Part shown: piece by piece, positions 8,926-33,724 of the stretch | Layout: each line of letters begins with the position of its first letter | Numbering within the stretch: the stretch's first letter is position 1 | IMG/VR virus record: IMGVR_UViG_3300035698_035432 | Span: 1-33,724 of that record | Source: a virus | Strand: one strand, 5' to 3' | Length of the DNA stretch: 33,724 nt | The notes under the pieces: model-generated | Databases searched by the model: none | Told to the model about the DNA's origin: nothing | Seen by the model: only the letters and a program-made list of their open reading frames with translations | Translations under genes and position numbers: made by a program

Positions 8926-9782
8926 GTCTGGTGCTGCAGGTCGGAGACAACGGGCAAGAGGTGCGGCGGCTGCGCGAGTACTTGTGTGGAGCCGGCAGCT
9001 CGCTGGACGCGCGCTACACGACCTGGCTGGCAAAGCAGGTGCGGGAGTTCCAGGCTACCCACGACCTCGCCGTGGACGGCCTCGCCGGTCCACAGACACA
9101 GCGTGCGCTCGGTATCGAGGTGCTCGACGGACTCGACGTCAGCCACTACCAGAGCGACGGCAACCGGCCGATCGACTGGGCGGCCTGTCGTGCGGCCGGG
9201 ATTCGCTGGGCCTACATCAAGGCCACCGAGGGCAGGACGATTGCTGATGCCTGGGCGGATCGCAACCGTGCGGGTGCGCTCGGGAACGGCGTTGTGCCGG
9301 GGCTGTATCACATAGCACACCCCGAGAACAACGACGCCGCTACAGAGTGGGAGTGGTTCCGGCTCAATGCCGGGATGCGCGTGGGTTGGGGGAGCCGTCA
9401 CTACTGCGAGCTCCCGCCAGCGCTCGACATCGAGCAATGGGACTGGCGCCACAGCGCCACCGTGCCAGAGCGGATCGAGTGGCTGGCCGAATGGGGCATG
9501 CGCGCTGCGGATTGGGGCGGGGCTCGGCCCGTTCTGTACGTGGGGGCGTCATTCCTCAAGCACATGCTGCAGGGTGGCGACCGCCTCGTCGACATCTACG
9601 ACCTCTGGATATCTCGATACTGGCTCGCACGCATTTCGGACCCGCGCTACACGGGCGACTGGGACGAGTGGACGCTGTGGCAGTGGACCGGGGATGGCAC
9701 ATGTGACGGCGTCGACGGGCGGGTCGACCGGAACTACATGGCGGGCGGGCAGTTCGGCCGGCTGTTGGGGAGGGCTGCGTGA
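8922..9782 (+). CDS. Endolysin: peptidoglycan-binding domain plus GH25 muramidase
   Basis: A 286-residue protein. Residues about 5-65 are a PG_binding_1 repeat (VGDNGQEVRRLREYL, REFQATHDLAVDGLAGPQT). Residues about 68-280 are a GH25 lysozyme, with LDVSHYQS (D72), WAYIKATEG (92-104), the catalytic DxE in ALDIE (D169, E171), and WQWTGDG near the end. GH25 enzymes cut the N-acetylmuramyl-1,4-N-acetylglucosamine bond. There is no signal peptide, so release should depend on a holin; a probable one lies at 10762. Its position among early/middle genes, upstream of GemA and of a terminator, is unusual for a lysis gene. Confidence 0.93.
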   Translation: MSLVLQVGDNGQEVRRLREYLCGAGSSLDARYTTWLAKQVREFQATHDLAVDGLAGPQTQRALGIEVLDGLDVSHYQSDGNRPIDWAACRAAGIRWAYIKATEGRTIADAWADRNRAGALGNGVVPGLYHIAHPENNDAATEWEWFRLNAGMRVGWGSRHYCELPPALDIEQWDWRHSATVPERIEWLAEWGMRAADWGGARPVLYVGASFLKHMLQGGDRLVDIYDLWISRYWLARISDPRYTGDWDEWTLWQWTGDGTCDGVDGRVDRNYMAGGQFGRLLGRAA

Positions 9783-12750: not shown

Positions 12751-14132
12751 CGCAGTTGCCGCCAGCCCTACCGCTCTACCCGTACCAGGTCCGCTGGGTT
12801 ACGGACCAGAGCCGGTTCAAGATCATCAACAAGGCGCGGCAGATTGGTATGTCCTTTGGCGGCGTGTCGCTGGAGCCAGTGCTGGACGGACTCGACGATC
12901 CCCGTGCGACTTGGGTGCTGCTTTCGGCTGGCGAGCGGCAGTCCAAAGAGCTCATCAACCAAGTGCGAATGCACGCGCAAGCCGTGGGCGCTGCAGCTGA
13001 CTACTTCGAAGACGAGTTCCGTGGGGACGAGGGCAGCTACAAGCTCCTCGAGGTGAAGCTCCCGACGGGCGCCCGCGTCCTCGGACTGCCGGCCAACCCC
13101 GACACCGCACGTGGATTTTCTGGGCATGTGTGCCTGGACGAGTTCGCGTTCCACAAAGACTCCCGTGCCATCTGGAAGGCGCTGTTTCCCATCGTGTCGA
13201 GGGGCTTCAAGCTGCGCATCGTCAGCACGCCCAATGGCAAGAACAACATGTTCTACCAGCTGTTCACCGACGAGTCGGGCCGCTGGTCGAAGCATTTCGT
13301 GGACATCTACAAGGCGGTCGACGAAGGCTACCCCGCCGATATCGACGAGCTCCGTGAAGCCATCAACGATCCGGATGCTTGGGCTCAGGAGTACGAGTGC
13401 CAGTTCCTTGATGCGGCGACCGCGCTGCTGACGTTCGAGCTTATCGCTGGGTGTTCCGACCCCAACGTGATGGCGAGCGAGCCGGTACTCTCGGCGCTGT
13501 CGAGCCTGAGAAATCTGAGCCTCGGCATGGACGTAGCGCGCTCCGGACACCTTACGGTCCTGTGGTTGCTCGAGCGGGTCGGCGACGTGTACTGGACCCG
13601 CGCTGTTCAGGAGCTCCAGAACACCAGGTTCCGCGTGCAGCGTGACGTCCTCAATGGCTTGCTCGAACTGCCGGGGCTGTACGGCGCCTGCATCGACAGC
13701 ACGGGCATCGGAAATCAGATGGCCGAAGAAGCCACTGAGGATTTCGGGGCCAAGGTCGAAGGGGTCAACTTCAACCCCGTGACCAAGAAGGACATGGCGA
13801 CGCGCATTCTCCGCACGTTCCAGGACCGCCGCATCCGGATCCCGGAGGGCAATATCCTGCGCAACGACCTGCACTCCGTCAGCCGCGTGATCACTTCGAA
13901 GGGCAACATCAGCTACGCAGCTCCAGAGACCAAGGACGGACACGCAGACAGGTTCTGGTCTGTTGCGCTGGCGCTTCGTGCGGCGGCGGCCGAGGCGGGC
14001 CCGGTTCGCGTCGCTTGTCCAAGCACGATGGAAGGCAAGGCCTCTAGCTCAACGATGAAACCACGACGCCGGTTCTGGACTGGCATTGGTCGTGCGCGCC
14101 GCGCGCTTGAAGGCTACGAGGAGGTCGCTTGA
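12747..14132 (+). CDS. Large terminase subunit (Mu gp28-like)
   Basis: A 461-residue packaging motor. The only usable start is TTG at 12747, overlapping the upstream TGA, because a stop precedes it and the Walker A region begins before the first internal Met. The ATPase has a Walker A variant KARQIGMS (about residues 29-36) and a Walker B VCLDEFAF (about 128-135), followed by RIVSTPNGKNN. The RNase H-like nuclease shows acidic positions in LGMDVARSG, ACIDSTGIG and DGHADRFWS. It cuts DNA and pumps it into the prohead in an ATP-driven manner. The C-terminus is basic and ends coupled to the portal gene. Confidence 0.95.
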   Translation: MTQLPPALPLYPYQVRWVTDQSRFKIINKARQIGMSFGGVSLEPVLDGLDDPRATWVLLSAGERQSKELINQVRMHAQAVGAAADYFEDEFRGDEGSYKLLEVKLPTGARVLGLPANPDTARGFSGHVCLDEFAFHKDSRAIWKALFPIVSRGFKLRIVSTPNGKNNMFYQLFTDESGRWSKHFVDIYKAVDEGYPADIDELREAINDPDAWAQEYECQFLDAATALLTFELIAGCSDPNVMASEPVLSALSSLRNLSLGMDVARSGHLTVLWLLERVGDVYWTRAVQELQNTRFRVQRDVLNGLLELPGLYGACIDSTGIGNQMAEEATEDFGAKVEGVNFNPVTKKDMATRILRTFQDRRIRIPEGNILRNDLHSVSRVITSKGNISYAAPETKDGHADRFWSVALALRAAAAEAGPVRVACPSTMEGKASSSTMKPRRRFWTGIGRARRALEGYEEVA

Positions 14133-16873
14133 TGAACGGACACGACGTCAAGCGTGCGGCCCGCAACGAGGCAGGGCAGGCTCTCTATAAAGAGGTAGCG
14201 AGCCGATCCTCCGATCCCGATTTCATCGCGGGGCTCGAGTACCTGCCCAACCCCGATCGTGTCCTCACGAAACTGGGCTACCGAGCCAACGTGTTCGAGG
14301 ACATCCAGTCGGACGCCCATGTTTTCGCCCAGGTGCAGCAGCGGAAGTCGGCGACTCTGAGCGAGGAGTGGGTGGTCTCCCCGGCCTCCGGCAAGAGAGC
14401 AGACAAAAAGGCGGCCGAGCTGTGCCGCGACCTCTTCGGGCGCTTGAATCTCCGGCAAATCATGGCCGGCTTGCTCGACGCTCCACTGCACGGCCGGGCG
14501 TATGCCGAGGTCATGTGGGGCCGCGACGGCGGGCTCATCGTCCCGACGGCCGTCCACGATCGTCCGCAGCGCCGATTCTCGTACGCTCCTGGTGGCGAGC
14601 TCCGACTGCTCACGCAGCAGGACATGACCGAGGGCGAGCCGGTGCCGCCTCGCAAGATCCTCCAAGCACGACAGTTCCCGACCTACGACAATCCGTACGG
14701 CGAGGCCGCACTCAGCCGCTGCTTCTGGCCGTGGACCTTCAAGCACAACGACCTGAAGTTCTGGGTCATCCTCGCCGAGAAATGGGGCGAGCCGTTCTTG
14801 TGGGGCAAGGTCGCGCGCGGGGCCACGGAGAAGGAGATCGCGGATCTCCTCGACGCCCTTGTGCACATGCGCCAAGACGGCGCGGGTGTGAGTCCGGGCG
14901 ACGGCAGTGTCGAAGTACTCGAGGGTAGCGCCAGCGCCAAGGGCGACATGCACGCGACTCTGGTCAAGGCGATGAACGCCGAGCTCTCGAAAGCGCTCAT
15001 CGGCCAGACGCTCACGGCCGAGGTTGGCGACAAGGGGAGCTACTCCGCCGCGAAAGAGCACCAGAATGTGAGGGCCGATCTCGCCGACTCGGACCAGGAG
15101 ATCGTGGGCGAGACGCTGAGCGAGCTGTGCTCCTGGATGACGGCGCTCAATGTGCCTGGTGCTCGGCCTCCGCGGTTCGAGTTCATCGACGAGGAAGCAC
15201 ATGCAGAGTGGCTCACGCATATCTCGGGCGCCGTCAAAGTCGGCGTCAAAGTGCCGTTGGCCTGGGCGCACAAGAAGCTGTCGATTCCGATCCCGAACGA
15301 GGGTGAGGACGTCCTCGAGGCGACACCAGATGTCGCACCGACCATCGCTCCTGGGTCCGAGTTCGCGCGGCGGACGCCGCGTCGTTTGCCTGGCCTGACC
15401 GAATTCGCGACAGCACCGGACGATGCGAACGAGCGCCTGGCGCGGGCGGCCATCGACGAGGCGAGTGAACACCTCGACGCTATTGCCGACACGCTGGGCA
15501 TGGTCGCGGCGCAGTCTCCGTCATACGAGGCGCTGCGCGGCAACCTGGCCCGTGGCTTGGAGGTTCTGCCTGTCGAAGAACTGGCCGACGTCGTCGGTCG
15601 CACCTTGTACACCGCCGAGCTCAACGGCCGGCTGTCCGTTGAGGCTGAAGCGGCCGAGGACATTGAGTTCGCGGATGCTCCCGCCGGCACGGTGTTCCAG
15701 CCGTTACCGTTCCGAGAGGCGATCCGGGCCTTCAATCAGAAGGTCACGCTCGCTCCGAGCGAGTTCAAAGGCCTGGCGATCGTCGCTCGTTCGGCGGGAT
15801 TCTCCGTCGCGGGGGACCTGTCGATGCGCTCTCTCGAGAGCGTTCGTTCGGCCATCGACCAGGCATTGAACGACGGCACAACCCTCGACGACTTCCGCGG
15901 CAAGGTGCGAACGATCGTAGCCGACGGAGGGGCGTCGCCTCTTGGCGACTACCACGTCGAGACCGTGTTCCGGCAGAACGTCCTGGGCGCCTACTCCGCG
16001 GGCCGCTACCGGCAGATGCGCTCGCCCCATGTCCTCAAGGCACGGCCGTACTGGCAGTACCACACGGTGGGCGACGACGACGTGCGCCCCTCGCACCGTG
16101 CGCTGGACGGCCGCGTGTTCCGCGCGGACGACGGCGTATGGGACGACATCTATCCGCCGAACGGCTACCGCTGTCGATGCAACGTGACGACGCTGAGCGA
16201 GCGTCAGCTACAGCGGCGCGGGCTGAAGGTCGAGCAGGGCTCGGACGTGCTCGGCAACCCCGTCGAGCTCGACGGGCAGATCGTCCAGGTCCGGCCCGAC
16301 GATGGCTGGAACACCAACCCCGCGAAGGACTTGTGGACCCCGGACACCTCGCGGTTCCCGGAGGCAATGCGCTCGGAGTTCGTCCGGCGTCGTGAGCTGT
16401 GGAGCGGGCCTCGAGGGACCCGGACGATCGTCAACTCAAGCGACGAGACGAAGCGTCTTCGCGAGTGGCGCGACCAGACCTTCGCGGACGATGCGGACCT
16501 CGAAGCCATCGCACGAAACTACGGTGTCGAGCACGCCGAGCTGGACCGCGTGAAACGGTACCTGTTCAGCGCCGACGACACGCTTGACGCCTCCAACGTG
16601 GAGATGTGGGAGCTCTTGCGTCGGGGTGAGGGCCATCCGGCCATGCGCAGTTTCCTCACGCACGAGCTGCGCGAGAGCGAGCTGTGTGAGCAGCTCGGCA
16701 TCGACTTCCGGAATGCAGCAGCGACACAGGCCGCACGGCTGTCCGGCGGGATTCACGAGCGAACGCTCTCCGAGTTGGGGCACTCGCCGTTCGAGCTCTT
16801 CCCGCCGGTCGTGATCAAGAAGCTGTCGCGGGAGTTCAACCCCTCATACCTCAAGTACTGGGGGACGAAATGA
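14132..16873 (+). CDS. Fused portal (DUF935) and MuF minor head protein with extra C-terminal domain
   Basis: A 913-residue single frame. Residues about 20-400 are a DUF935/Mu gp29 portal, with SATLSEEWVVSPAS, QFPTYDNPYGEAALS and WVILAEKWGEPFLWGK. Residues about 420-735 are MuF/SPP1 gp7-like, with the diagnostic RPSHRALDG (652-660), a D..W segment, and PPNGYRCRCN (675-684). In Mu these are two genes (gp29, gp30/F). Residues about 765-913 form an additional helical domain with HELRESEL at 844-851 and an ending FNPSYLKYWG. I do not recognise this domain; MuF proteins of other phages often carry C-terminal toxin or enzyme domains. No frameshift or internal stop separates the parts. Confidence 0.92.
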   Translation: MNGHDVKRAARNEAGQALYKEVASRSSDPDFIAGLEYLPNPDRVLTKLGYRANVFEDIQSDAHVFAQVQQRKSATLSEEWVVSPASGKRADKKAAELCRDLFGRLNLRQIMAGLLDAPLHGRAYAEVMWGRDGGLIVPTAVHDRPQRRFSYAPGGELRLLTQQDMTEGEPVPPRKILQARQFPTYDNPYGEAALSRCFWPWTFKHNDLKFWVILAEKWGEPFLWGKVARGATEKEIADLLDALVHMRQDGAGVSPGDGSVEVLEGSASAKGDMHATLVKAMNAELSKALIGQTLTAEVGDKGSYSAAKEHQNVRADLADSDQEIVGETLSELCSWMTALNVPGARPPRFEFIDEEAHAEWLTHISGAVKVGVKVPLAWAHKKLSIPIPNEGEDVLEATPDVAPTIAPGSEFARRTPRRLPGLTEFATAPDDANERLARAAIDEASEHLDAIADTLGMVAAQSPSYEALRGNLARGLEVLPVEELADVVGRTLYTAELNGRLSVEAEAAEDIEFADAPAGTVFQPLPFREAIRAFNQKVTLAPSEFKGLAIVARSAGFSVAGDLSMRSLESVRSAIDQALNDGTTLDDFRGKVRTIVADGGASPLGDYHVETVFRQNVLGAYSAGRYRQMRSPHVLKARPYWQYHTVGDDDVRPSHRALDGRVFRADDGVWDDIYPPNGYRCRCNVTTLSERQLQRRGLKVEQGSDVLGNPVELDGQIVQVRPDDGWNTNPAKDLWTPDTSRFPEAMRSEFVRRRELWSGPRGTRTIVNSSDETKRLREWRDQTFADDADLEAIARNYGVEHAELDRVKRYLFSADDTLDASNVEMWELLRRGEGHPAMRSFLTHELRESELCEQLGIDFRNAAATQAARLSGGIHERTLSELGHSPFELFPPVVIKKLSREFNPSYLKYWGTK

Positions 16874-21928: not shown

Positions 21929-22164
21929 GCGACAAGAAGGCTTCGGCGCCCAAGGCGCCCGACAAGAAGGCCGCCGCGCTCGAGCCCACCATTGAGGAGC
22001 ACGCCAGCTCTCTCCAGGTGGAGCCGGGCATCCTCGCCGCGCTCAAGCGGGCGAACAACTTGGGCGCCGGCAAGCGCATGGCGCGGGCAGAGTTCGACAC
22101 TCTCGTCCGGGGCGTCCTCGACGGGCCGCTCAATCAGCGTCGGCCGAGCAAAGGGGGTAAGTGA
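21925..22164 (+). CDS. Small protein before the sheath (Mu gp38-like position)
   Basis: A 79-residue protein, ATGA-overlapping its upstream gene and ending in TGATG at the sheath start. The first 25 residues are Lys/Ala/Pro-rich and probably disordered. The rest is a small helical unit (GILAALKRANNLGAGKRMARAEFDTLVRGVL). It occupies the place of Mu gp38, a small protein of unknown role. Function is unknown. Confidence 0.65.
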   Translation: MSDKKASAPKAPDKKAAALEPTIEEHASSLQVEPGILAALKRANNLGAGKRMARAEFDTLVRGVLDGPLNQRRPSKGGK

Positions 22165-23549
22165 TGCCGCTGCCTGATTTCACAAACGTGATTCGTTCGA
22201 ACGGCCTCGGTATCAACGGCGACTCGTTCGAGAACGTCCTCGCCGTCATCGGCTGCTGCTCGCTCGGCACGGCAGGCGACATCGTCGCCTTGTCCGATCT
22301 CGAAGAGGTGGCCGGAGCGCTGGGCACTGGCCCGCTCGCGGACTTCGTGGCGGACGCCCTCGGCGCCCGCGCGCCGCTGGTGCTCGCCTGTCGCGCCGAG
22401 TCCGTGACCGGTGCCAACGGCGAAGTCACCGAAGAAAAGACCGGAGACGGCACCGTAACGCCGAGCGGCGTTCCGCTCGACGATTACGATGTCGTCATCG
22501 AGATACTGAGCGACGGTGTCCTCAACGCGGCGACCTTCCGCTACTCACTGGACGGTGGCGACACTTGGTCGGACGCGCAGACGGTGCCGACCGACGGCGT
22601 CTACGAGATTCCGAACACGGGGATCACCGTGACCTTCGCGTGTACGGAGGGCTTCGACGACGGCGACCAATTCGAGTGGGCCGCGGCCGACACCGGCATG
22701 ACCCTCGCTACGATGAACGCGGCCATCGAGGCGCTGCGCGCTTCGTCTCAGCGCTTCTCGCTGCTCGGGGTGGCCGGCGAGTCGCTGTCCCCCGCCTGGA
22801 CGGCGCTGGACGGCAAGGCCGAGTTGTTCGCGGGAGACCACAAGTTCTTGCGCGTGATCTGTGAGGGGCCTGCAGCCAACGAGGACGAGACGGTCGCCGA
22901 GTGGGTGGACATGTGCCTCGAGGACGCCGACGGTTTCGCGTCGAACCGCGTCGGTCCGGTCGCGGCTCGCGGGCTCATCATCGACCAGCTCACAGGGGCG
23001 CAGGTCGAGCGCAACCTCGCCGGCATCTACGCCGGTCGGCTGTGCGCGTTGTCGTCCGTCCATACGTCCCCGGCCGAGGTGGCCCAGGGCTCCGTGTCGA
23101 ACATCGTCGAGCTCCGCCCGGCGGGTCTGACCGAGGCTCAGATCACCCAGCTCGACGCAGCTCGGTACGTCACGTTCCGGACGATCTCCGACCTCGACGG
23201 GTACTACGTAACGAACGGCCGCCTCATGGCCGCCACAACGAGCGACTTCCAGTACATCGAGCTCGGCCGCGTCATGGACAAGGCGGCGAGGCTCAGCCGT
23301 ATTGCGGGGCTGCAGCTGCTGCAGGGTGACGCCGACGACCGCGGCCAGGCCGCGCTCAAGAACGTCATGAAGGGGCCCCTCCGACGGATGCGTCAGACCG
23401 GAGAAATCACCGACTTCGAGGTCGTGATCCCCGCCGGGCAGGACGTGCTCGCGAGCGGTCGACTGTCGACCAAGGTGCGTATCCAACCGGTCGGCAAGCT
23501 GCGTTGGATCGAAAACGACATCGGGTTCTACAACCCGTACAGCGGATGA
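22164..23549 (+). CDS. Contractile tail sheath protein (DUF2586-like)
   Basis: A 461-residue protein. The N-terminus (FTNVIRSNGLGINGDSFENVLAVIGCCSLG) and the conserved C-terminal third are sheath-like: LDGYYVTNGRLMAATTSDFQYIELGRVMDKAAR (about 349-380) and LRRMRQTGEITDFEVVIP (about 413-430). An inserted beta-rich region at about 75-180 would project outward. The sheath contracts to drive the tube through the envelope; the next gene is the tube. It starts within the previous stop (TGATG). The DUF2586 assignment is by pattern and context. Confidence 0.85.
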   Translation: MPLPDFTNVIRSNGLGINGDSFENVLAVIGCCSLGTAGDIVALSDLEEVAGALGTGPLADFVADALGARAPLVLACRAESVTGANGEVTEEKTGDGTVTPSGVPLDDYDVVIEILSDGVLNAATFRYSLDGGDTWSDAQTVPTDGVYEIPNTGITVTFACTEGFDDGDQFEWAAADTGMTLATMNAAIEALRASSQRFSLLGVAGESLSPAWTALDGKAELFAGDHKFLRVICEGPAANEDETVAEWVDMCLEDADGFASNRVGPVAARGLIIDQLTGAQVERNLAGIYAGRLCALSSVHTSPAEVAQGSVSNIVELRPAGLTEAQITQLDAARYVTFRTISDLDGYYVTNGRLMAATTSDFQYIELGRVMDKAARLSRIAGLQLLQGDADDRGQAALKNVMKGPLRRMRQTGEITDFEVVIPAGQDVLASGRLSTKVRIQPVGKLRWIENDIGFYNPYSG

Positions 23550-23559
23550 GGAGGGCGTC

Positions 23560-24003
23560 GTGATCAACGGACGCGTCTACGATTTTCAGGCGATGGGTGT
23601 GAGCTTGTTCGGCGGTCTTCTCCAGGAGGACCTGACCGCCATAGACTACAGCGATCAGCAGACCAAGGAACACGCCCACGCCATCTCCAGCGCTGCCGCT
23701 CGTGGCATCGGTCGAGGGCGATACACAGCCTCCGGGCAGCTCAAGATGCTCCGCGAAGGCTTCGAGGATCTGTTGCGCGCGATCAGCGCGGCCGACGGCG
23801 GATCCAAAACTCTCTACGGCATCCAGTTCGAGGCCACCGTGTCCTACGGCGACGACGAGGCAGCTCTCGTTACGGACGAGCTCCCGCTGTGTGAGTTCAC
23901 GAAGATCGCGTCGGGCGCGAAGGAAGGGGACACCAAGAACGAGGTGACCCTCGATTTCATCATCATCGACCCCATCGTCTACAACGGCGTGTCCGCGGTG
24001 TAA
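23560..24003 (+). CDS. Tail tube protein
   Basis: A 147-residue protein with a GTG start and GAGGAGGG upstream. It reads as a beta-barrel tube subunit: INGRVYDFQAMGVSLFGG at the start, KEHAHAISSAAARGIGRGRYTASG in the middle, and TKNEVTLDFIIIDPIVYNG at the end. Size and position immediately after the sheath are as for Mu gpM and related myovirus tube proteins. It forms the inner conduit for DNA. Confidence 0.85.
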   Translation: MINGRVYDFQAMGVSLFGGLLQEDLTAIDYSDQQTKEHAHAISSAAARGIGRGRYTASGQLKMLREGFEDLLRAISAADGGSKTLYGIQFEATVSYGDDEAALVTDELPLCEFTKIASGAKEGDTKNEVTLDFIIIDPIVYNGVSAV

Positions 24004-24027
24004 GCGCGGAGCTCAGGAGAATCCCCC

Positions 24028-24411
24028 ATGGACAAGACCAACCCAGACACGACGACGCAGGCATCCTCGAGGACGGCGACGATCGACCCCTACGAGAGCG
24101 ATATCAAGCGGCGCCTGGACGCGGGCGAGAAGCTGGTCCATGCAACCGGCCATGACCTCGACACGGACCAGAACTACGACATGGTCTACGTCCGGCCGTC
24201 TGCCAATCACCTCGCTCGCTACATGCAGATGTCGCAGAGCCAGAACGCGTTCGCCGCGGGGAAGAGGTTGTGCTTGGACCTTACGGTCAAGCCGACCAAA
24301 CAAGAGCTGCGACGGCAGTTCGAGCGCGAGCCCGGCCTCGTCGTGAGCCTGACCGGCGACATGCTTCAGTCCGTAGGCGGGGGCATCAATTTCGAGCGAG
24401 CAGCCTTGTAG
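24028..24411 (+). CDS. Tail assembly chaperone, short form (Mu gp41-like)
   Basis: A 127-residue protein with AGGAG upstream, lying between tube and tape measure, where tailed phages place the chaperone pair. The sequence (LVHATGHDLDTDQNYDMVYVRPSANHLARYM, ELRRQFEREPGLVVSLTGDML) is mixed alpha/beta. Like other such genes it is followed by an out-of-frame continuation reached by a shift near its 3-prime end (see 24384-24611). The short form should be the abundant product that coats the tape measure. Confidence 0.7.
   Translation: MDKTNPDTTTQASSRTATIDPYESDIKRRLDAGEKLVHATGHDLDTDQNYDMVYVRPSANHLARYMQMSQSQNAFAAGKRLCLDLTVKPTKQELRRQFEREPGLVVSLTGDMLQSVGGGINFERAAL
24376..24384 (+). other. Candidate -1 frameshift region in the tail chaperone gene
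   Basis: The zero-frame codons GGC GGG GGC hold a run of five G at 24379-24383, nine codons before the short form's stop. A -1 shift here enters the frame open to 24611. It is not a perfect X-XXY-YYZ heptamer, so the exact slip point is uncertain. Confidence 0.45.
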
Positions 24412-24611
24412 ACGAGGAGCTGGGGCGGCTGCGAGAGGACTACTTCGCCCAGCTCCAGCTTCTCGTCGCCGTGGAGTTCGGACGCCCGTTGGCTGAGGTC
24501 GAGGGCCTGGAGTTCACGGAGCTCGCCAGCCTAGCTGCGCGAGCGCATTGGCTCGAGGAGCGTCGGGTGTCCGTCATTGAGGCTGCGATCCGCAGGGTAC
24601 TGAGAGGGTAG
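24384..24611 (+). CDS. Frameshift extension of the tail assembly chaperone
   Basis: About 75 codons in the -1 frame relative to the short form. They read HQFRASSLVDEELGRL and continue with a helical acidic domain (EDYFAQLQLLVAVEFGRPLAEV, EFTELASLAARAHWLEERR). No ATG, GTG or TTG with a ribosome site lies at the start of this frame, so it is probably made only by frameshifting. It ends four bases before the tape measure start, as expected for the T-type part of G/GT chaperones. Mu is reported to use a -2 shift for the equivalent gene. Confidence 0.6.
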   Translation, partial: HQFRASSLVDEELGRLREDYFAQLQLLVAVEFGRPLAEVEGLEFTELASLAARAHWLEERRVSVIEAAIRRVLRG

Positions 24612-24615
24612 CGTC

Positions 24616-26673
24616 GTGTTCGGAGGCATGTTCAAAGCTGGTTTGATGCTGTCGTTGGCGGACCGGATCTCGGGGCCCATGCAGCGCGTGATCGGCAACA
24701 TGTCCAAGATGCAGGCCGCCACGGACAGGCAGAACAAGCGGCTTGTGACGATGGGCACGCGCATGTCCAAGGTTGGCGGCGGCATGACGAAGTTCGGTGC
24801 CGTCGGGACCGTGGCATTCGGTGCCGCTCTCCGCCCCGTCATGACGATCGAAGACGAACTCGCGAAGGTGCAGACCGTCGCGGCGGGGACCCTGGGATCC
24901 GTTGAGGCCGACGTCAACGCTGTCAAAGAGGCAGGATTCGCATGGGGGCGCCAGCACAAACAAGGTGCGGCGCAGTTTATCGCGACCAGCTACGACATGA
25001 TTTCTGCGGGATTGGACACGCGAGCCGCCATCGAGGCGACGCAGACGTCTATGACCGTAGCGACCGCGACCATCGGCAAGAACCGGGAGTCGGCGCAACT
25101 GCTATCCAGCGTCTACCTCAACATGGGCGACCGCATGGCGCCGGTCGCTGACGAGATGGGACGCATTGGCGACCAGATTACGAAGACGCAACAGCTCTTC
25201 AAATTCGCGGATCTGGGACAGCTCGCCGAGGGCCTGAAGTACGGGGTGCCCGCCGCGAAGGTCGCCAACCTGTCGTTGGACCAGCTGCTCGTGGCTGTCG
25301 GCCAGCTCAACAACGCGGGGCTCGAGGGAGGCCAAGCCGGCACGGCATTCGCTGCGTCGCTCCGGCAAATGGACAAGGCCGCGGGTGCGCTGGGATTCAC
25401 CGTCGTACGCACGTCGGACGGTTCACTCGACCTGGTCGCCACACTCGACAATCTGAAAGGCACAGTCGGTTCGTTTGCGTCGATGTCCGCCGAGACTCGC
25501 ATGGCGCTCCAGACCGCGTTCGGCGATGAAGGGCTGCGGGCAATATCGGCGATGGTCGACAAGACGGGCGAGATGCGAACGCAACTCGACCAGGTCGCTC
25601 AGTCTGCCGGGGCGGCAGCCAAGGCACAGGCCATCATCGAAGGGCGCGGCAGCGGGCGACTCCATGTCCTGAAGAACAAGGCAATTGAGATGCTGTATCG
25701 GGTCGGCCTCAAGGCGCTGCCGATCCTCGAGCGCTTGCTGCCTGTCATCGAGAAGGTAGCCGACAGTGTGCTGGGGTTCGTGGAGGCCAACCCAGGCCTT
25801 GCCGAAATGGCCGTCAAGATAGGCCTCATCGGGTCGATGGCGAACCTCGTGCTGGGGCCCATCCTCAGCTTGGGTGGCGGCATCATGCAGCTCGTCGGCA
25901 AGACGGGCCTTCTGTCCAAGGGCATGGGTCTGTTCGGTCTCCGTGGGGCCGCGGGCGCAGGACAAGCCGCAGCTGGCGTTGGCAAGGTGTCAACTGCCGC
26001 CACCGCCGCTGGCGGTCGCATGGCCGCAGCTTTCGGCAGAGTTGGTGGAGGCCTGAAGACTCTCGCCGGCACCCTCGCCGGCAAAGTTGCCTTGGCCGTC
26101 GGAATGTTCATCACCGCGTCTCGCGTGTTGGGTCCGATAGGCCGGCGTCTGATTGGTAACGCCGACATCAGCGCCAGCACCAACCGGGCGCAGGAATTGG
26201 AGGCCCGAGCGGCGTCATCGCTAGGTCGCAAACAGGTAAGCCACGAGGACAAGCTGCGGGCCCAAGAGATGATGGAGCGCGGCGCCTACCTCCGAGCCCG
26301 CTCTCTCGATATCGCCCACGACGTGCGGCACGGCAGCGGCTTCGGCGGAGACATCAACGGCGAGATGTACGGAGGGGTGCTTGGCGGCGGTGCGCCGGCC
26401 AAAGCACCCAGGCAAATGTACGTTGGCGGGCGGGGTGCGGTCGACGTCGTGCGTCCTCCGGGGGGGAGACCCGCGGGGCTTCAGTCCGCGGGAGCTGCCG
26501 GCGAAACTCTGCGGGTCCAGGACAAAGACTCCCGTGACATCCAACAGCGGATGGTCACGCTCCTTGAGGAGATGGCTCGCCAGAATCCGGAAATCACAGT
26601 GAACGTCGAGCAGACGGGTGCAACGGACGGGTCCTTCGTCGGCCAAGCCGCCCGGGCGGGAGCGACACCGTAA
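24616..26673 (+). CDS. Tail tape measure protein (TP901 type)
   Basis: A 685-residue protein with a GTG start. Residues about 70-350 match the TP901 tape-measure core (EDELAKVQTVAAGT, AAQFIATSYDMISAGLDTRAA, LNNAGLEGGQAGTAF, MALQTAFGDEGLRAISAMVD). Residues about 396-515 are hydrophobic and Gly/Ala-rich (IGLIGSMANLVLGPILSLGGG, VALAVGMFITASRVLG), typical of the part that enters the inner membrane during ejection. The chain length sets tail length. It overlaps the next start by TAATG. Confidence 0.93.
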   Translation: MFGGMFKAGLMLSLADRISGPMQRVIGNMSKMQAATDRQNKRLVTMGTRMSKVGGGMTKFGAVGTVAFGAALRPVMTIEDELAKVQTVAAGTLGSVEADVNAVKEAGFAWGRQHKQGAAQFIATSYDMISAGLDTRAAIEATQTSMTVATATIGKNRESAQLLSSVYLNMGDRMAPVADEMGRIGDQITKTQQLFKFADLGQLAEGLKYGVPAAKVANLSLDQLLVAVGQLNNAGLEGGQAGTAFAASLRQMDKAAGALGFTVVRTSDGSLDLVATLDNLKGTVGSFASMSAETRMALQTAFGDEGLRAISAMVDKTGEMRTQLDQVAQSAGAAAKAQAIIEGRGSGRLHVLKNKAIEMLYRVGLKALPILERLLPVIEKVADSVLGFVEANPGLAEMAVKIGLIGSMANLVLGPILSLGGGIMQLVGKTGLLSKGMGLFGLRGAAGAGQAAAGVGKVSTAATAAGGRMAAAFGRVGGGLKTLAGTLAGKVALAVGMFITASRVLGPIGRRLIGNADISASTNRAQELEARAASSLGRKQVSHEDKLRAQEMMERGAYLRARSLDIAHDVRHGSGFGGDINGEMYGGVLGGGAPAKAPRQMYVGGRGAVDVVRPPGGRPAGLQSAGAAGETLRVQDKDSRDIQQRMVTLLEEMARQNPEITVNVEQTGATDGSFVGQAARAGATP

Positions 26674-27503
26674 TGGGTACGTCGTTCGAGACCATCTCCA
26701 GTGCTGGCGCGATCCGTCTCGGGGGCATCGATCTGCCAGGTCACGAGCAGGCCATCCGTGTCGAGGGTACGGTCTTCCGTCGCAACAACAACGTTCCCGG
26801 CCGCTCGGGAGCGTACCGGCAGCCTTTGGGATACGAAGATGCGACCGTGGCGTTGCGCCTTCTGTTTCTGGACAACGAAGCGGGCCGCACGGAACTGACG
26901 CAACTCTATCAGATGGAGTCGCTGTTCAAGGCCGTCGACAGCTCCGCGAAACCCGAAGTTGTTCGCCTCGTCAACGCCCATACCGCAGCGCGCGGGATAG
27001 TCCACGTCGTGTGGAGCCGCCTGTCGAGCCGAGAGAGCGTCGACCGTGGGGGCATAGAGGCCACCATCGAGTTGCTGCAGCACCGACCCGAAATCATCGA
27101 AAAGGAACTCGCGGCGATCCGGGCCAAGAAGTGGCTCCAGGAAAAGACCGACGAGTTGGCCAGCGAGACGGCGACGTTCCTCACGAACTTCGCGGGCGGC
27201 CACTATGTGGGCCCCGCGGTCCAAGGTGTGGCGGACAGCGTGACGGGGTCTGCTGCGTGGCAGCAGCTGTCCAGTGGTTGGCAGTACGCTTCCGCCGACA
27301 TCAGCGGCGGGGAGTCGGGCACGTGGAAGACGAGTCAGTTGGAGGCGGACTACAACCTGCAGTACGCGGAACAGCAGCGAGCGGAGCAGCGGCGCGCGCA
27401 GGAGCAAGCAGTCTCAGACAGCGCGCGAGTGCGAGCGGAGCGCCGCGCAGAAGATGCCGAAAAATGGCGTAAACAGAGAATGGAAAATCTGCTGCTTCGG
27501 TGA
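26673..27503 (+). CDS. Putative baseplate/tail protein in the Mu gp43 (N) position
   Basis: A 276-residue protein coupled to the tape measure gene. Residues about 10-170 are beta-rich (AIRLGGIDLPGHEQAIRVEG, NVPGRSGAYRQPLGYEDATVAL). The last 60 residues form a very charged helix rich in Gln/Arg/Glu (YAEQQRAEQRRAQEQAV onward), likely a coiled coil. In Mu this slot holds the DNA circularisation protein N, a baseplate component. Sequence alone does not confirm homology; a baseplate role is inferred from order. Confidence 0.6.
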   Translation: MGTSFETISSAGAIRLGGIDLPGHEQAIRVEGTVFRRNNNVPGRSGAYRQPLGYEDATVALRLLFLDNEAGRTELTQLYQMESLFKAVDSSAKPEVVRLVNAHTAARGIVHVVWSRLSSRESVDRGGIEATIELLQHRPEIIEKELAAIRAKKWLQEKTDELASETATFLTNFAGGHYVGPAVQGVADSVTGSAAWQQLSSGWQYASADISGGESGTWKTSQLEADYNLQYAEQQRAEQRRAQEQAVSDSARVRAERRAEDAEKWRKQRMENLLLR

Positions 27504-27531
27504 CTGAGGACACGCAAGGGACGGGAGCACT

Positions 27532-28332
27532 ATGAGCGAGTTGTTGCGACACACCCCAGACTGGGACGTGAAAATCGGCGATTGGTCCGTGGACCGACTG
27601 CTCGAGTTGCGCCTTGTGTCGGGTCGTTCGCAACCGCTGGCCTCGTGCACGTTGGCCATCGACAACACCGACGGGCGTACGGGGTCTGTGGACCCTGGGA
27701 CGCTCATCGCCGTCGGTCTCGGAGACCGAACCACGGCCCTGCGGCCGGTGTTCGCCGGGCAGATTGATCGGTCGAGTCCGTCTCATCGCCTCGAGCTCGA
27801 GGCGCGCGACCAGATGCTCCAGCTACACCGACTCACCGTGACCCGCCAATGGCTCCGAGTCACTCCTCAAGAGGTCGCTCGACAGCTCGTTCGCGAGGCG
27901 GGAGTCCAGGCGACGATCTATGGTGGCGAACTTCCCCGCAGGCACGCCGTTGTGTCAGCGGGCCGGACCGCGCTGCAGGTGCTGCAGGACATGGCCGCCA
28001 CGTGGGGACTCGACTGGGACCTCTACTGCGACGGGATGGGCGCCATTTGGTGGGGCCCGTGGGACGAGTCGCCCAGAGCCCGTCAGTCGATTGAGGCTGG
28101 CCCGGTGACCTATCGCTACGGCGAGGACCTCCTGGAGCTCGAGCCGGCCGAAGACGGCGAGCGCGGCCGGGCGAGATGCAAACTGTCTCCGGAGATTGAG
28201 CACTCGACGGTCTGCTTGCTCGCGGACTCGCGCTACTGGCAGCGTCGAATGCTCGCGCGGATCGAACAGGTGCGCCATTACGTCGGTGAGGCGGGGTCGC
28301 ACACCGAGTTCTATTGGAGCCCATTGATATGA
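27532..28332 (+). CDS. Baseplate hub protein (Mu gpP / phage late control D-like)
   Basis: A 266-residue protein with GGGAG upstream. The beta-rich plan and several segments (VDRLLELRLVSGRSQPLASCTLAIDN, LRPVFAGQIDRSSPSHRLELEARDQM, VARQLVREAGVQATI, ALQVLQDMAATWGLDWDLYCDG) match hub proteins of the gp27/gpD family. These form the trimeric centre of the baseplate onto which the spike docks. It overlaps the spike gene by ATGA. Confidence 0.85.
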   Translation: MSELLRHTPDWDVKIGDWSVDRLLELRLVSGRSQPLASCTLAIDNTDGRTGSVDPGTLIAVGLGDRTTALRPVFAGQIDRSSPSHRLELEARDQMLQLHRLTVTRQWLRVTPQEVARQLVREAGVQATIYGGELPRRHAVVSAGRTALQVLQDMAATWGLDWDLYCDGMGAIWWGPWDESPRARQSIEAGPVTYRYGEDLLELEPAEDGERGRARCKLSPEIEHSTVCLLADSRYWQRRMLARIEQVRHYVGEAGSHTEFYWSPLI

Positions 28333-28871
28333 AGATGAGCGAACGCGACCGACAGGCCTTCGAGGCTCTCGTCCGGCGCTTGGCGCCGACGCCACTGCCG
28401 ACGGTATTGGCTCGGGTAGTGGAGAGCCCTCCTACCTCGGCCGGCACGGCCGACGCGCTCCGGCCGCGCTACGTCGTGGCTGTTCAGGTGCTCGGGCCCG
28501 ACGGCTCGGACGATCTCGAGTGGCCCGTGCTGCACGAGGTGCCGGTCTCCCACTTGTGGGCTGGTCAGGGCACGGGCGTGTGGGCTCTGCCGGCGGAGGG
28601 GAGCATCGTCCGTCTCGACTGGGACTACGGGGACGCCTGCCGCCCCTGCGTGGTCGGGATCGTGCAGGACGGTCAGGACGTCCCCGAGCATGCCCAGGGG
28701 GAGCTCATCGTGACCCAGGGTGGCCAGGTCCGCTTGCGAATCCTGTCTGACGGAACGGTCGAGCTGGGCGGAGGTGTCCAGCTGCCGAGTGGTGTCGTTC
28801 GGCAGTGCGACGTGTGTGCGCTTACGGGCGTTGGCCACGCCGCCGCAAGCCAGGAGGTCAAGGCGCGATGA
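28329..28871 (+). CDS. Baseplate spike/assembly protein (Mu gp45, gpV-like)
   Basis: A 180-residue protein. After a helical N-terminus (MSERDRQAFEALVRRL) an OB-fold-like section follows (VLARVVESPP, WPVLHEVPVSHLW, GVWALPAEGSIVRLDW). A C-terminal beta-helix needle is suggested by GELIVTQGGQVRLRILSDGTVELGG. The end, CDVCALTGVGHAAASQEV, resembles the tips of gpV/gp45 spikes. It would puncture the outer membrane at the tail tip. Confidence 0.85.
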   Translation: MKMSERDRQAFEALVRRLAPTPLPTVLARVVESPPTSAGTADALRPRYVVAVQVLGPDGSDDLEWPVLHEVPVSHLWAGQGTGVWALPAEGSIVRLDWDYGDACRPCVVGIVQDGQDVPEHAQGELIVTQGGQVRLRILSDGTVELGGGVQLPSGVVRQCDVCALTGVGHAAASQEVKAR

Positions 28872-29065
28872 CGTCGGCGGAGTACATGGCCGAGGTCGCC
28901 CTTGCGGCGCTCCCCGAACAGGCCGCGAGTGAGGGCGTCGAGATCGATTTGGACAACGCTCCGATGTCGAGGGCCTTGCTCAAATCCATCATGATCGGAG
29001 TCTACGCAGGGATGCAGCTTCTCGATGACATCACGGGCCAGCCGCCCAGCGTGGGGCACCGATGA
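28868..29065 (+). CDS. Small baseplate-region protein, unknown
   Basis: A 65-residue helical protein whose ATG overlaps the spike stop and whose stop overlaps the next ATG. It has the acidic segment EGVEIDLDNAPMSRALLKS and a weakly hydrophobic helix (IMIGVYAGMQLLDDI). No family is recognised. Tight coupling on both sides supports translation. Confidence 0.6.
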   Translation: MTSAEYMAEVALAALPEQAASEGVEIDLDNAPMSRALLKSIMIGVYAGMQLLDDITGQPPSVGHR

Positions 29066-29478
29066 CAGCTCATCTCGGAACCGACATAGCCCTGTCAGAG
29101 GCCGGTGACGTCGTCGTCTCGGCGTCCGGCGACGTGCAGCTCGTCACGGGTCGGGCTTGTCTGGCCCAGGACCTGGCGTTGCGATTGGGGACACCTCGCG
29201 GCGGCTTGCTCGACCACCTGGCGTATGGCTGTGACGCCGTCACGCTGCTGCAGAGTGATGACGCCGATATCAACCGATTGGACCTGCAGCTGCAGCTCGA
29301 GGAGTCCTGTCGGGCGGACCCACGCGTCGACCGCGCCTCCGCGACGGTTGAGACCTGGGGACGCGATAGTGTCCGCGTCCGACTGTCTGTATGGCCGCTC
29401 GACGACGACGACAACCCGCTGAATCTCGTCATCGGATATGGCGTGGACGGCGTCACCACGGAGGTGCTGTATGGCTGA
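29062..29478 (+). CDS. Baseplate wedge protein, gp25/gpW-like (Mu gp46)
   Basis: A 138-residue protein. The core shows the gp25-like wedge fold: GDVQLVTGRACLAQDLALRLGTPRGGLL (about 29-56), INRLDLQLQLEESCRADPRVDRASA (about 72-96), then VRVRLSVWPLDDDDNPLNLVIG. gp25/gpW proteins link the hub to the baseplate J-like protein and start sheath polymerisation. Its 3-prime end overlaps the next gene by eight bases. Confidence 0.88.
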   Translation: MTAHLGTDIALSEAGDVVVSASGDVQLVTGRACLAQDLALRLGTPRGGLLDHLAYGCDAVTLLQSDDADINRLDLQLQLEESCRADPRVDRASATVETWGRDSVRVRLSVWPLDDDDNPLNLVIGYGVDGVTTEVLYG

Positions 29479-30655
29479 GCCCAACTGGCGAGCGCTCGTC
29501 GGAGCACGGACGCACACAGAGCTCGTGGAGCGGGCTCTGACTGAACTCGCGGACAGTGGCACGGCCATAACCAACCTCAACGTCGGAGGGCTGTGGCGCA
29601 CGCTCACGGAGTTCGCCATGCGCCCACTAGCTTGGGTCTGGGACGACCTGGCGACTTTGCTCCGCAACGGCTATCGCCGCTATGCGGACGCCCCGTATAT
29701 CGACCTCGCGATGGACGACCTCGGCCTCGAGCGGCTCGAGGAGCTCGCGACCGTTGGACAACTCCGGTTCGTGCGGACGGCCGGCGGCTCAGGGAACGTC
29801 GTAATTCCAGCTGACGTCGTGGCTGCGACGCAAGTGAGCGCCAGCGGAGAAGTGCTCAGGTACTTGGTTACCACGCAGACCGTCCTCGTCGACGGCGATG
29901 ACTGTGTGCTCGTGCCGATAGAGGCGGAGACGGTCGGAGCGGCCTACAACGTATCTGCCGGCCTGATCACGGAGTTGTCGACGCCCATCGTGGGGATCGG
30001 CAGCGTCACAAACGACGAGGATTGGATCACGACAGAAGGACGAGACGAGGAAGACACCGAAGCGTACCGAGCTCGCGGGGACAACCGCTGGCCTCAGCTG
30101 AGCCGCGGAGCGACAGCGGACGCCTACAAAGGATGGGCCCTTGATGCGGGTGCTGTGTCGGCATCCGTCGACGACCTCCACCCTCGCGGTCCCGGCACGG
30201 TAGACGTCGTGATCACGGGGCCAGACGGCATGCCATCGTCGGCGCTGCTAGCGGCCGTCCAGGCCTACATTGACGACGGCCGAGCGCCCCAGTGCGTAGA
30301 TGTCCTCGTCAGAGCTCCGAGCGCGCTGTCTATCGATGTCGTCCTTGCCATCGTCGCCCACCCCGACACGGACGACGCTCGCGTCGAGGCCATGGAGACC
30401 GAGGGGGCCGCGCGTGTCGTGGCGTTCTTCGACGGCGCCGAGGCTGGCGAGCTCGCCGACGATGAGTCGGCCGTGACGGGCCTGGGTTCAGGCGACGACT
30501 TTGCCCTCGGCCGACTGCTCGGCCTGGTCGCGAAGATGCGCGACTTGTATGACGTCGAGGCGCCGGACGGCCAGGCGTCGGTCAGCGTGGCTGCGGACGA
30601 GCTCGCCGTGCTTGGCGGCGTGACAGTCAGTGTCACGCGGGCGGGAGCGCGCTAA
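29471..30655 (+). CDS. Baseplate J-like protein (Mu gp47)
   Basis: A 394-residue protein, ATG at 29471. It has the baseplate J plan: a helical N-part with GLWRTLTEFAMRPLAWVWDDLATLL, a beta domain GQLRFVRTAGGSGNVVIPAD (about 97-116), the conserved TEGRDEEDTEAYRARGDNRWP segment (about 193-213), and PGTVDVVITGPDGMPSSALLAAVQAYIDD (about 236-264). It forms the wedge periphery that triggers sheath contraction. It overlaps the next gene by TAATG. Confidence 0.92.
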   Translation: MAEPNWRALVGARTHTELVERALTELADSGTAITNLNVGGLWRTLTEFAMRPLAWVWDDLATLLRNGYRRYADAPYIDLAMDDLGLERLEELATVGQLRFVRTAGGSGNVVIPADVVAATQVSASGEVLRYLVTTQTVLVDGDDCVLVPIEAETVGAAYNVSAGLITELSTPIVGIGSVTNDEDWITTEGRDEEDTEAYRARGDNRWPQLSRGATADAYKGWALDAGAVSASVDDLHPRGPGTVDVVITGPDGMPSSALLAAVQAYIDDGRAPQCVDVLVRAPSALSIDVVLAIVAHPDTDDARVEAMETEGAARVVAFFDGAEAGELADDESAVTGLGSGDDFALGRLLGLVAKMRDLYDVEAPDGQASVSVAADELAVLGGVTVSVTRAGAR

Positions 30656-31374
30656 TGAGTACGCTCGCCGATGCCATGTGGGCCCTGCTCCCGGCGCCCC
30701 TGCGTCGCTCGCGCGGGGAACTCTGGCGCTGGGTGGAAGTACTCGCTGCCGCGTATGGCGAGGCGTTCGATGCTATCGCCGCCCCGGCGCGCAATCGGCA
30801 CCCGATCTCGTGTGCAGATGGTGTCCTGCCCATCCTGGGTGAAGATCGAGAGCTGCCTCAGTTGCCGGGCGAGTCGCTCGACGAGTGGCGGCTTCGGTTG
30901 CGACAGGCTTTCGCGTTGCACCAGGAGGGCGGCACCAACGCAGGGGTGGAGCGCGTACTGCGGGTATTCGGTTTCGAGGACCCGGCGGTGTACGAGCACC
31001 GACAGGACGCCGTCCGCTACAACGGGTCTCACAGCTTCGACGGGGAGTGGACCTACGGCGGCTGGTGGAGCTGGGCCCACTTCTCCGTGCTCCTCGAAGC
31101 CGTGGCGGGCGGCGTCTCGGCCGAGCTGCTCGCCACGGTCCGTGCGGCCATCCGCAAACACAAGGCCGGTCACGCGGTGCTCGCCGAGATCCGGCTCACG
31201 CAGCCGGCCATGGAAGACACGGTTTCTGTCGGCGATGAGCTCGAGCTTGGGGTCAGTGTCGACCTGGAGGACGACTGGGGCTGGTCGGGAGCGCGATACG
31301 ACGGGGCATGGCCGTTTGACGGTCTCATGAAGTACTCGACGAGCAACGACGAGCTCGTCGTCACAGTGAGCTAG
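30655..31374 (+). CDS. Tail protein I-like baseplate protein (Mu gp48 position)
   Basis: A 239-residue protein. It starts TLADAMWALLPAPLRRSRGELWRWVEVLAAAYGEAFDAI and continues with LPQLPGESLDEWRLRLRQAFALHQEGGTNAGVERVLRVFGFED, a pattern of tail protein I / gp48 proteins. Residues about 115-145 contain SHSFDGEWTYGGWWSWAHF. The C-terminus is beta-rich with a repeat of the FDG element (WPFDGLMKYS). It connects the wedge to the fibres. Confidence 0.8.
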   Translation: MSTLADAMWALLPAPLRRSRGELWRWVEVLAAAYGEAFDAIAAPARNRHPISCADGVLPILGEDRELPQLPGESLDEWRLRLRQAFALHQEGGTNAGVERVLRVFGFEDPAVYEHRQDAVRYNGSHSFDGEWTYGGWWSWAHFSVLLEAVAGGVSAELLATVRAAIRKHKAGHAVLAEIRLTQPAMEDTVSVGDELELGVSVDLEDDWGWSGARYDGAWPFDGLMKYSTSNDELVVTVS

Positions 31375-31383
31375 GGGGACGCG

Positions 31384-31821
31384 ATGAACGCGACCGAGCA
31401 GATTCGAGTGCGCGGCGAGCTGGAGATCGAGGTGCGGCGCAAGGGCGTCCTGATCGAGCGCTGGGCGGGCGCCAACGTGGTGACTGAAGCCGGCAAGGAC
31501 CGCATCGCTGAACGAGCCGGCGGCCTTGGCGAGCCGATCTCTCGAATCGGGATCGGCGAGGACGGGACTGCCGCCACGCCGCAGGACACAGCCTTGGTCA
31601 ACAGCTACGCCCAGGATGTTGACAGCGTCGGCGCCGTCGCGGGTCAGCGCGTGCGGTTTGCGTTCGACATCGGTGCGGGCCAGGGAACTGGCACGGTGAT
31701 CCGAGAGTTCGGGCTGCTGACCGCGGATGGCGTCATGTGTGCTCGCCGCGTGAGGACCAACCCCATAACCAAAGACGCGGACACGACGGTGTCCGGACAG
31801 TGGACGCTCATCCTGAGCTGA
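31384..31821 (+). CDS. Tail-fibre-associated protein
   Basis: A 145-residue protein with a G-rich ribosome site. It matches a recurrent phage tail protein pattern: WAGANVVTEAGKDRIAERAGG (about 28-48), ISRIGIGEDGTAATPQDTALVN, VRFAFDIGAGQGTGTVIREFGLLTADGVMCARR, and VSGQWTLILS at the end. Such proteins lie before receptor-binding proteins and probably attach fibres to the baseplate. Confidence 0.75.
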   Translation: MNATEQIRVRGELEIEVRRKGVLIERWAGANVVTEAGKDRIAERAGGLGEPISRIGIGEDGTAATPQDTALVNSYAQDVDSVGAVAGQRVRFAFDIGAGQGTGTVIREFGLLTADGVMCARRVRTNPITKDADTTVSGQWTLILS

Positions 31822-31833
31822 CGGAGGTGGACG

Positions 31834-32211
31834 ATGGCCAACGTGCCAGAGACAGGCCTGTGGGCGGACGGGGTCTATCAGCTTGAACCGAACGACCCGG
31901 CCGAAGGCGGCGAGGGCGGTCTGGCGAACCTGCAGGCTACGCAACTTGCAAACCGCACGAAGTGGCTCAAGGCGAACAAGGTGGAAATGCTGTCCGCCCA
32001 CCCTTCAATGGCCGGACCGGACGGCGTTGTCGTCACACACAATCTGGGGTCGACCGGATACAGCGTGTCCGTCGTGGCGCTCGCTGACCCCGGTGGAGAC
32101 CTGGGGGAGGTCTGGGCGACCAAGGGTGAGGATACGGTGACCATCCACAACTCGGGCGGCTACCGCGGACAGTGCGAGACCGTGCTGTACTACTCGCCCG
32201 CGGCGTTGTGA
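31834..32211 (+). CDS. Short tail-fibre N-terminal-like protein
   Basis: A 125-residue protein with GGAGG upstream. The N-terminus (GLWADGVYQLEPNDPAEGG, LQATQLANRTKWLK) is typical of phage tail-fibre proteins that start by docking to the baseplate. The rest is a small beta domain (VVVTHNLGSTGYSVSVVALADPGG, DTVTIHNSGGY). It is far shorter than a full fibre, so it may be an adaptor for the large protein that follows. Confidence 0.7.
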   Translation: MANVPETGLWADGVYQLEPNDPAEGGEGGLANLQATQLANRTKWLKANKVEMLSAHPSMAGPDGVVVTHNLGSTGYSVSVVALADPGGDLGEVWATKGEDTVTIHNSGGYRGQCETVLYYSPAAL

Positions 32212-32221
32212 GGAGGATTCG

Positions 32222-33724
32222 ATGAGTATCGCAGTGTTGAGCTTCAAGGCCCTGGCTGACCGCATCCTGTCCGGCATGCGAGTCGTGCCGGTGGATGACG
32301 GACAGGGCAACGTGTCCGAGATGGTCTTCGTCCCGCGATTCACGGTCCCCGCAAACTCGCTTCTGGATGAAACCTGGCCCTCGGCCGACCTGGACCTCGG
32401 CGGGTTTCTCGTCGACCGCTACTCGTGCTCCCACCCAGACGCCACGCAGAGCACGCGAGGCATCGGGACCAATCCCACGGTGGCTGCCGATTCGTCGTCG
32501 GATATCGCCGTCTCCCGTGCAGCGGTCGTACCATGGACGGATATTGCCATCGAGAACGCCGCGAAGGCCTGCGCCAACCGCAAGGTATTCGGTGGCCAGA
32601 GTTGCCACTTGCTGGCACCGCGCGAATACGCAGCCTTGGTGCTGTTGCTGTGGTTGCTGGGCGCTCCCGTCCGCGGCAATACGACCAGCGGCCGGGACGT
32701 GCGAGACGACAACGTCTGGGCAAACAACGGAGTGCCCGATCCCATCGCGCCGGGCCGTTGTCTCGTCGGCACCGGCCCGGCGAGCTGGAGCTCGACCCAG
32801 CAAGCTGCCGCGATGGCTGACCTTCTCGGCAACGTCTGGGAGATGCTGGACATGCCGGTCGAAGATACGGTCTACACCCACCGGATGGCGGCAGCTCTCG
32901 ATGACGCAGCCGGCATTGTCGCCGGCGACACGTCGATCGATCTCGGCGGAGTCCAGGATCTGAGCAACTGGCCGGCCTCGAACGGGTGCATCTACATCCA
33001 TCCGGAAGGGTCGAACGCCGAGGAGACCGTCGAGTACGGCACGCTGACGGACAACGGGAACGGGACCATCACGCTTTCCGGCTGCAGCCGTGGAGCAAAT
33101 GGCTCGACTGCTGGCCCCCACTCCGACGACGCAGTCGTCGAGTGTCTGGTCGAGAAGTGCATCATGCCCGGTGGAGCTCGTGGAACGGTAGACAGTGGCC
33201 TAGACAACACGACCGACCCGGTGACCTTCACCCGCAAATCGGACTTGCTCCAGGGTCCGGGGGGAGGCGTTCTGACCGCCGGAGACGTCGTGGACTGCGA
33301 CGGTGAGCTGCTCGAAGTGACCGGCGTCGCCGGGACGAGCATAACCGCGGCGCGTGGCTACAACGGCACGACGCCCGCCAGTCACGCTGACGGCGCGGTG
33401 TTCGCGCGCATGTCGCCGGGCGGAGCGCTGACAGGAACGGGGCTCACAACCGTACAGGGCCGCATCAGCGGCCTTTCGGACGATCCCATTCTGCAGTCGA
33501 TGGCCATGCCGTCGGCGCTTGTTGAAGCCTCTGAGGAGGGTGAGCTCGGCGGCGACACGTGTCGCATCGACGGACACTGCGGTGCCATAGGTGTGTCCGT
33601 CGTCAGAGGCGGGGCATACGTCCTCGTCACCGGGGAGCGAGCCTACTCAGGATTCTGCCTCCGCACGAGCGGCCAAGGCCCATCAGTGGGGTTCCGGGCT
33701 GCCTTCACGCTAGTCGACTGCTAA
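32222..33724 (+). CDS. Receptor-binding candidate with C-type-lectin/FGE fold, DGR-target-like
   Basis: A 500-residue protein with AGGAGG upstream. Residues about 60-210 look like the first part of an FGE-sulfatase/C-type-lectin fold: FLVDRYSCSHPDAT, PWTDIAIENAAKACANR, LLAPREYAALVLLLWLLG, GRDVRDD, DLLGNVWEMLD. Residues about 415-500 complete it, with VRGGAYVLVT, AYSGFCLR and VGFRAAF. Two related 70-residue beta modules (about 239-310 and 330-397, each with SRGANGS/RGYNGT and an H-x-D-x-A-V ending) are inserted between. This layout occurs in phage variable receptor-binding proteins (Mtd-type) whose C-terminus is rewritten by DGRs, and also in non-variable FGE-like tail proteins. The window ends at its TAA. 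Confidence 0.8.
   Translation: MSIAVLSFKALADRILSGMRVVPVDDGQGNVSEMVFVPRFTVPANSLLDETWPSADLDLGGFLVDRYSCSHPDATQSTRGIGTNPTVAADSSSDIAVSRAAVVPWTDIAIENAAKACANRKVFGGQSCHLLAPREYAALVLLLWLLGAPVRGNTTSGRDVRDDNVWANNGVPDPIAPGRCLVGTGPASWSSTQQAAAMADLLGNVWEMLDMPVEDTVYTHRMAAALDDAAGIVAGDTSIDLGGVQDLSNWPASNGCIYIHPEGSNAEETVEYGTLTDNGNGTITLSGCSRGANGSTAGPHSDDAVVECLVEKCIMPGGARGTVDSGLDNTTDPVTFTRKSDLLQGPGGGVLTAGDVVDCDGELLEVTGVAGTSITAARGYNGTTPASHADGAVFARMSPGGALTGTGLTTVQGRISGLSDDPILQSMAMPSALVEASEEGELGGDTCRIDGHCGAIGVSVVRGGAYVLVTGERAYSGFCLRTSGQGPSVGFRAAFTLVDC
33605..33712 (+). other. Possible DGR variable region at the tail protein C-terminus
   Basis: Residues 462-497 run from the RGG element to GFRAAF, about the length and bounds of DGR variable regions in C-type-lectin targets. 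Four consecutive codons TAC GTC CTC GTC all fit an ancestral AAC changed only at its A positions, and other NNC codons follow (TGC, CGC, AGC, GGC). In GC-rich DNA NNC codons are common, so this is suggestive only. The template repeat and reverse transcriptase would lie beyond the window. Confidence 0.4.

Follow-up and report, generated by a model that had tools for sequence, protein, structure and literature searches.

We analysed the complete viral record IMGVR_UViG_3300035698_035432 from IMG/VR, a stretch of 33,724 nt referred to here as the window. Its last gene encodes a tail protein with a C-type-lectin fold of the formylglycine-generating enzyme (FGE) type, which an earlier note had proposed to be diversified by a diversity-generating retroelement (DGR). 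We find instead that the gene very probably encodes an ordinary, fixed lectin tail protein, a receptor-binding candidate that comes from a family of DGR targets and stands as the last phage gene of a DGR-less lineage. We favour this reading because the record contains neither a reverse transcriptase (RT) nor a template repeat (TR), the protein falls on the DGR-less side of its family tree, its relatives there lack a DGR, host genes follow soon after the stop codon in such relatives, a second record (L135) ends at the same point, and the framework of the family TRs is absent from the gene. At the tail tip, the split FGE-type lectin would bind the host receptor through fixed loops, with the C-terminal loops varying by ordinary mutation and recombination only. 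On the real contig, the phage end and host DNA would lie just past the gene.

A split FGE-type lectin ends the tail operon

The gene (32222–33724, plus strand; 500 aa) is the last of both the tail operon and the record. The N-terminal part of its FGE fold (aa 15–215; 32264–32866, plus strand), with GNVWE at aa 203–207, is separated by an insert with Rcc01698_C-like repeats (around aa 215–430; 32867–33511, plus strand) from the C-terminal strand region RGG...GFRAA (33605–33703, plus strand). The latter occupies the site of the variable region (VR) in DGR-bearing homologues, and we examined it by alignment, TR comparison and codon statistics. The protein C terminus reads RGGAYVLVTGERAYSGFCLRTSGQGPSVGFRAAFTLVDC, with RGG encoded from 33605 and GFRAA to 33703. 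PHROG 2889 matches the protein at aa 15–210 (E 6e-18), and aa 17–215 of the N-terminal half align by tblastn to orf35 of Vibrio phage VHML and gp18 of Vibrio phage VP58.5. The Pfam FGE-sulfatase family is matched by 14 of 17 aligned family members, the window protein itself being sub-threshold.

Among solved structures, the family profile best matches 5VF4 (E 5.6e-24), which is TaqVP, a DGR variable protein of Thermus aquaticus (PMC6328139). The same structure is the best match of the predicted model (E 2e-6), with TM-scores that are low (0.25–0.29 by query). The AlphaFold model is weak C-terminally, with pLDDT below 50 for aa 437–487, and the loops were kept outside the structural reading. 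Despite this likeness in profile and fold, TaqVP ends in a VR that is followed by TR, Avd and RT, whereas the window gene lacks such a VR framework and its record lacks a DGR.

The protein belongs to the C-type-lectin (FGE-type) class expected of a DGR target; in this transposable, Mu-like phage it would be a distal tail protein and most likely the receptor-binding tip. The RGG...GFR motif is typical of the FGE fold generally, with or without a DGR. The split fold with its RGG...GFRAA ending, as described in the earlier note, is thus borne out by PHROG 2889, 5VF4 and the insert; the resemblance to DGR targets seen there holds for the family, most of whose full-length members found are DGR targets, and not for the motif. 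A tail operon that closes with an FGE/lectin fold bearing RGG...GFR is therefore insufficient on its own for calling a DGR target.

The 3′ end does not resemble a family variable region

The codons TAC GTC CTC GTC had been read as AAC altered only at adenines. This run is uninformative, because any NNC codon can be so described and such runs are common here. NNC codons make up 43% of the codons in the phage, and resampling places runs of at least four in 51% of 31-codon segments and runs of at least five in 26%. The codon run was consequently dropped as a sign of a DGR.

We compared the last 150 bases of each family gene with the TRs of other members, 21 family TRs in all, forgiving mismatches at TR adenines. 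VHML orf35 and VP58.5 gp18, the nearest phage records, which are about 30% identical to the window protein over the N-terminal half and likewise adjoin a tail fibre gene, served as positive controls; they were verified as DGR targets with an RT downstream (and an annotated Avd in VP58.5), and of 90 VR positions 6 in VHML and 11 in VP58.5 differ from the TR, every one at a TR adenine. True VRs of DGR-bearing members show 0–8 non-adenine mismatches per 60 against the TR of another member. The window 3′ end shows 19 per 60 against the nearest of the family TRs, compared with 16–20 for DGR-less relatives; random window segments give no fewer than 15 (median 20). A VR that matches family TRs except at TR adenines is hence not found in the window, where the match is at background level. 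Moreover, the family framework NW..GS.AR.GFAL.L..P is gone from 33605–33703, and the alignment requires indels relative to the family, whose TR peptide reads RGGNWNNGSNARSGFALNLNNPPSNTNINIGFRAA. The region was not shaped by a TR of the family type.

The rest of the record is similarly devoid of DGR components. No RT (PF00078) was detected in the 33.7-kb record at E 0.001, and a search of both strands for a near-copy of 33560–33724, with template-adenine mismatches free, returned chance-level matches only. One tblastn match to RT (14825–15007, minus strand; E 2e-4, 61 aa) falls within the portal/head gene, in antisense, and PF00078 does not see it; we regard it as a chance match. Scanning viral_contigs with single proteins, the FGE protein and baseplate J, gave no match, and the searches made turned up neither a second copy nor reads of this phage.

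One family with and without DGRs

A profile search for full-length homologues yielded 22 with a DGR directly downstream, 13 of them viral and 9 in Bacillota genomes, some being near-copies of each other. Their VRs differ from their TRs almost solely at TR adenines. VR, TR and Avd are present in all 22, and RT in all except L101; counted over whole viral records, RT is present in 13 of 19. The records of four DGR-bearing members (L012, L023, L025 and L026) also bear MuA, and at their right end the FGE tail gene is followed by a complete DGR. Right-end DGRs thus do occur in transposable phages that have this tail protein. Transposable phages with a DGR were already known in Hankyphage (PMC6199706) and in Mushu, whose DGR target is a Hoc-like decoration protein (PMC5883640). 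Both possess RT, TR and VR, whereas the window record has no RT or TR.

Several DGR-bearing members are unusual in layout. In L101, no RT was matched by tblastn over 8 kb downstream, and its RT may be broken. The TR lies about 3 kb from the VR in L064, 1.6 kb from it in L133, and upstream of the target gene in L122. A further member, L010 (1247–2785), has a core near-identical to that of L011 and a VR with 0 non-adenine mismatches per 60 against a family TR; no TR or RT occurs within 1.76 kb downstream, where an amidase-like gene is found instead. L010 may be a second target of a DGR, or a remote one.

Nine relatives carry the FGE gene without RT, Avd or a VR–TR pair: L020 (G013), L108 (the same prophage as IMG/VR record L135), L144–L148, L150 and L152. 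L144–L148 are five further Myxococcota prophages, and L150 and L152 are viral records. All nine except L146, a short contig, have a multi-gene Mu-type tail operon beside the gene. No RT was found in the whole G013 or L135 records, nor by tblastn adjoining the gene in the others; the downstream DNA covered was 1.8–10.8 kb, apart from L020 and L148 with 0.2 kb, which are weak negatives. L108 (Myxococcota metagenome-assembled genome VGRB01000011) and the Mu-like phage G013 resemble the window in having a syntenic Mu-type tail operon with a split FGE gene last and no DGR, synteny with L020 having been read across its whole 37-kb record. They differ from it in that their proteins are just 34–39% identical to that of the window, each with its own divergent C terminus. 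A DGR-type RT with Avd (L142; G020:C320) on a separate contig of the genome that holds L108 was considered as a trans-acting DGR for L108 and rejected, the comparison giving 16–17 non-adenine mismatches per 60, which is background.

In a maximum-likelihood tree built on family cores with the VR columns removed, one branch (84/91) has all 20 DGR-bearing rows on one side and the window with the nine DGR-less rows on the other. The window pairs with L020 at 98/93. Support for placing the window on the DGR-less side is good but not conclusive on these sequences. The earlier note had suggested comparison with related prophages, which turned out two ways: adenine-restricted VR/TR differences characterize the DGR-bearing homologues, and the window and its nine relatives lack that signature. 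A single tail-protein family therefore holds both DGR-diversified and DGR-less members. This offers a natural comparison, in a single phage architecture, of what a receptor-binding protein gains under mutagenic homing and without it.

Why the record stops at the gene

The TAA of the last gene (33722–33724) is the exact end of the record, while the left end does not fall on a gene boundary. In four DGR-less prophages, host genes begin shortly past the FGE stop codon: an alpha-2-macroglobulin family gene after about 180 bp in L108, a dockerin protein gene after about 150 bp in L144, a gene read from sequence as encoding a secreted cysteine-rich protein after about 300 bp in L147, and a MurJ-like gene, likewise read from sequence, after about 540 bp in L145. 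The L135 record is trimmed exactly at the FGE stop, its other side being the contig end (8788–29470 of 29470), and apart from the window no other record was seen to stop at precisely that point. Because the window has this same end pattern, the simplest reading is that it, too, would be a provirus cut off where its final phage gene ends.

Alternative explanations

Several points weigh against a fixed lectin in a DGR-less lineage. The record ends at the TAA, so sequence past 33724 falls outside the search for RT and TR. The highest single identity of the window protein (44–46%) is to the DGR-bearing members L012 and L009. The branch that divides the family reaches only 84/91, and several DGR-less rows have long branches. 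Finally, an earlier tree that had two rows less required two changes for the division between DGR-bearing and DGR-less members, although the pairing of the window with L020 was kept (100/98).

The C termini of DGR-less members are strongly divergent, with indels, and a fast-changing lectin C terminus diversified by non-DGR means, for instance by prophages recombining with each other, can be entertained for this lineage but is unlikely. Recent loss of a DGR, leaving a former target with a frozen VR, is likewise very unlikely. The scaffold is common to the window and DGR-bearing members, and L010 provides a precedent for a VR that matches a family TR without RT or TR in its flank. A gene of this history would, however, be expected to keep an intact VR framework as L010 does, in place of the mismatches counted in the window, and absence of a DGR is common to a wide range of divergent relatives. 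Loss in the distant past, or an equally old gain across the branch, is compatible with the fixed-lectin reading as well.

We consider the presence of a DGR immediately past the record end highly improbable. The same small chance is given to the gene being an active DGR target, with Avd, TR and RT past the end and 33605–33703 rewritten by mutagenic homing. The 22 DGR-bearing homologues are so arranged, including the four in MuA-bearing phages, and the closest solved structure is itself a DGR variable protein. Yet the window groups with DGR-less relatives, its VR framework is absent with background-level similarity to all family TRs, and the change of W to Y and the indels in the region are impossible through adenine changes to a family-type TR. 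In addition, the provirus records of the DGR-bearing relatives L023, L025 and L026 retained their RT, while the sole other record ending at the stop codon is DGR-less. Of the proposal that mutagenic homing diversifies the gene, what stands is that MuA-bearing relatives have such a DGR; the tree, the missing TR framework and the record without RT or TR speak against it for the window. An enzymatic role for the protein (formylglycine-generating or EgtB-like) can be dismissed almost entirely despite its FGE/SUMF1 fold, since the gene lies at the end of the tail operon beside a tail fibre gene, and the region diversified by DGRs in the family is the counterpart of the active site in FGE, a location that suits binding over catalysis (PMC6328139).

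Gene layout of the phage

A MuA-like transposase gene (3623–5902, plus strand; PHROG 310, E 4e-112) shows the phage to be transposable. A MuB match is also present, and Mu-type head and tail genes follow in order. The contractile tail operon of Mu type (22161–31821, plus strand) comprises sheath, tube, tape measure, N, D, V, W, J, I and gene 31384, and is syntenic with that of G013 and the Myxococcota prophages. Directly upstream of the FGE gene lies a gene for a tail-fibre-like protein (31834–32211, plus strand), a neighbour that is kept in relatives. The placement of the FGE gene at the end of the tail operon of a transposable phage, as first described, is upheld by these matches.

Two further features lie away from the tail. 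A single open reading frame of 914 aa (14129–16873) holds both portal and gpF-like head morphogenesis domains, which are two genes in Alteromonadaceae phage B23. At 8922–9782, within the early region and at a distance from the tail genes, lies a gene for what reads from its sequence as a lysozyme-like protein that begins with a peptidoglycan-binding part; in L150, by contrast, a peptidoglycan-binding protein comes after the FGE gene.
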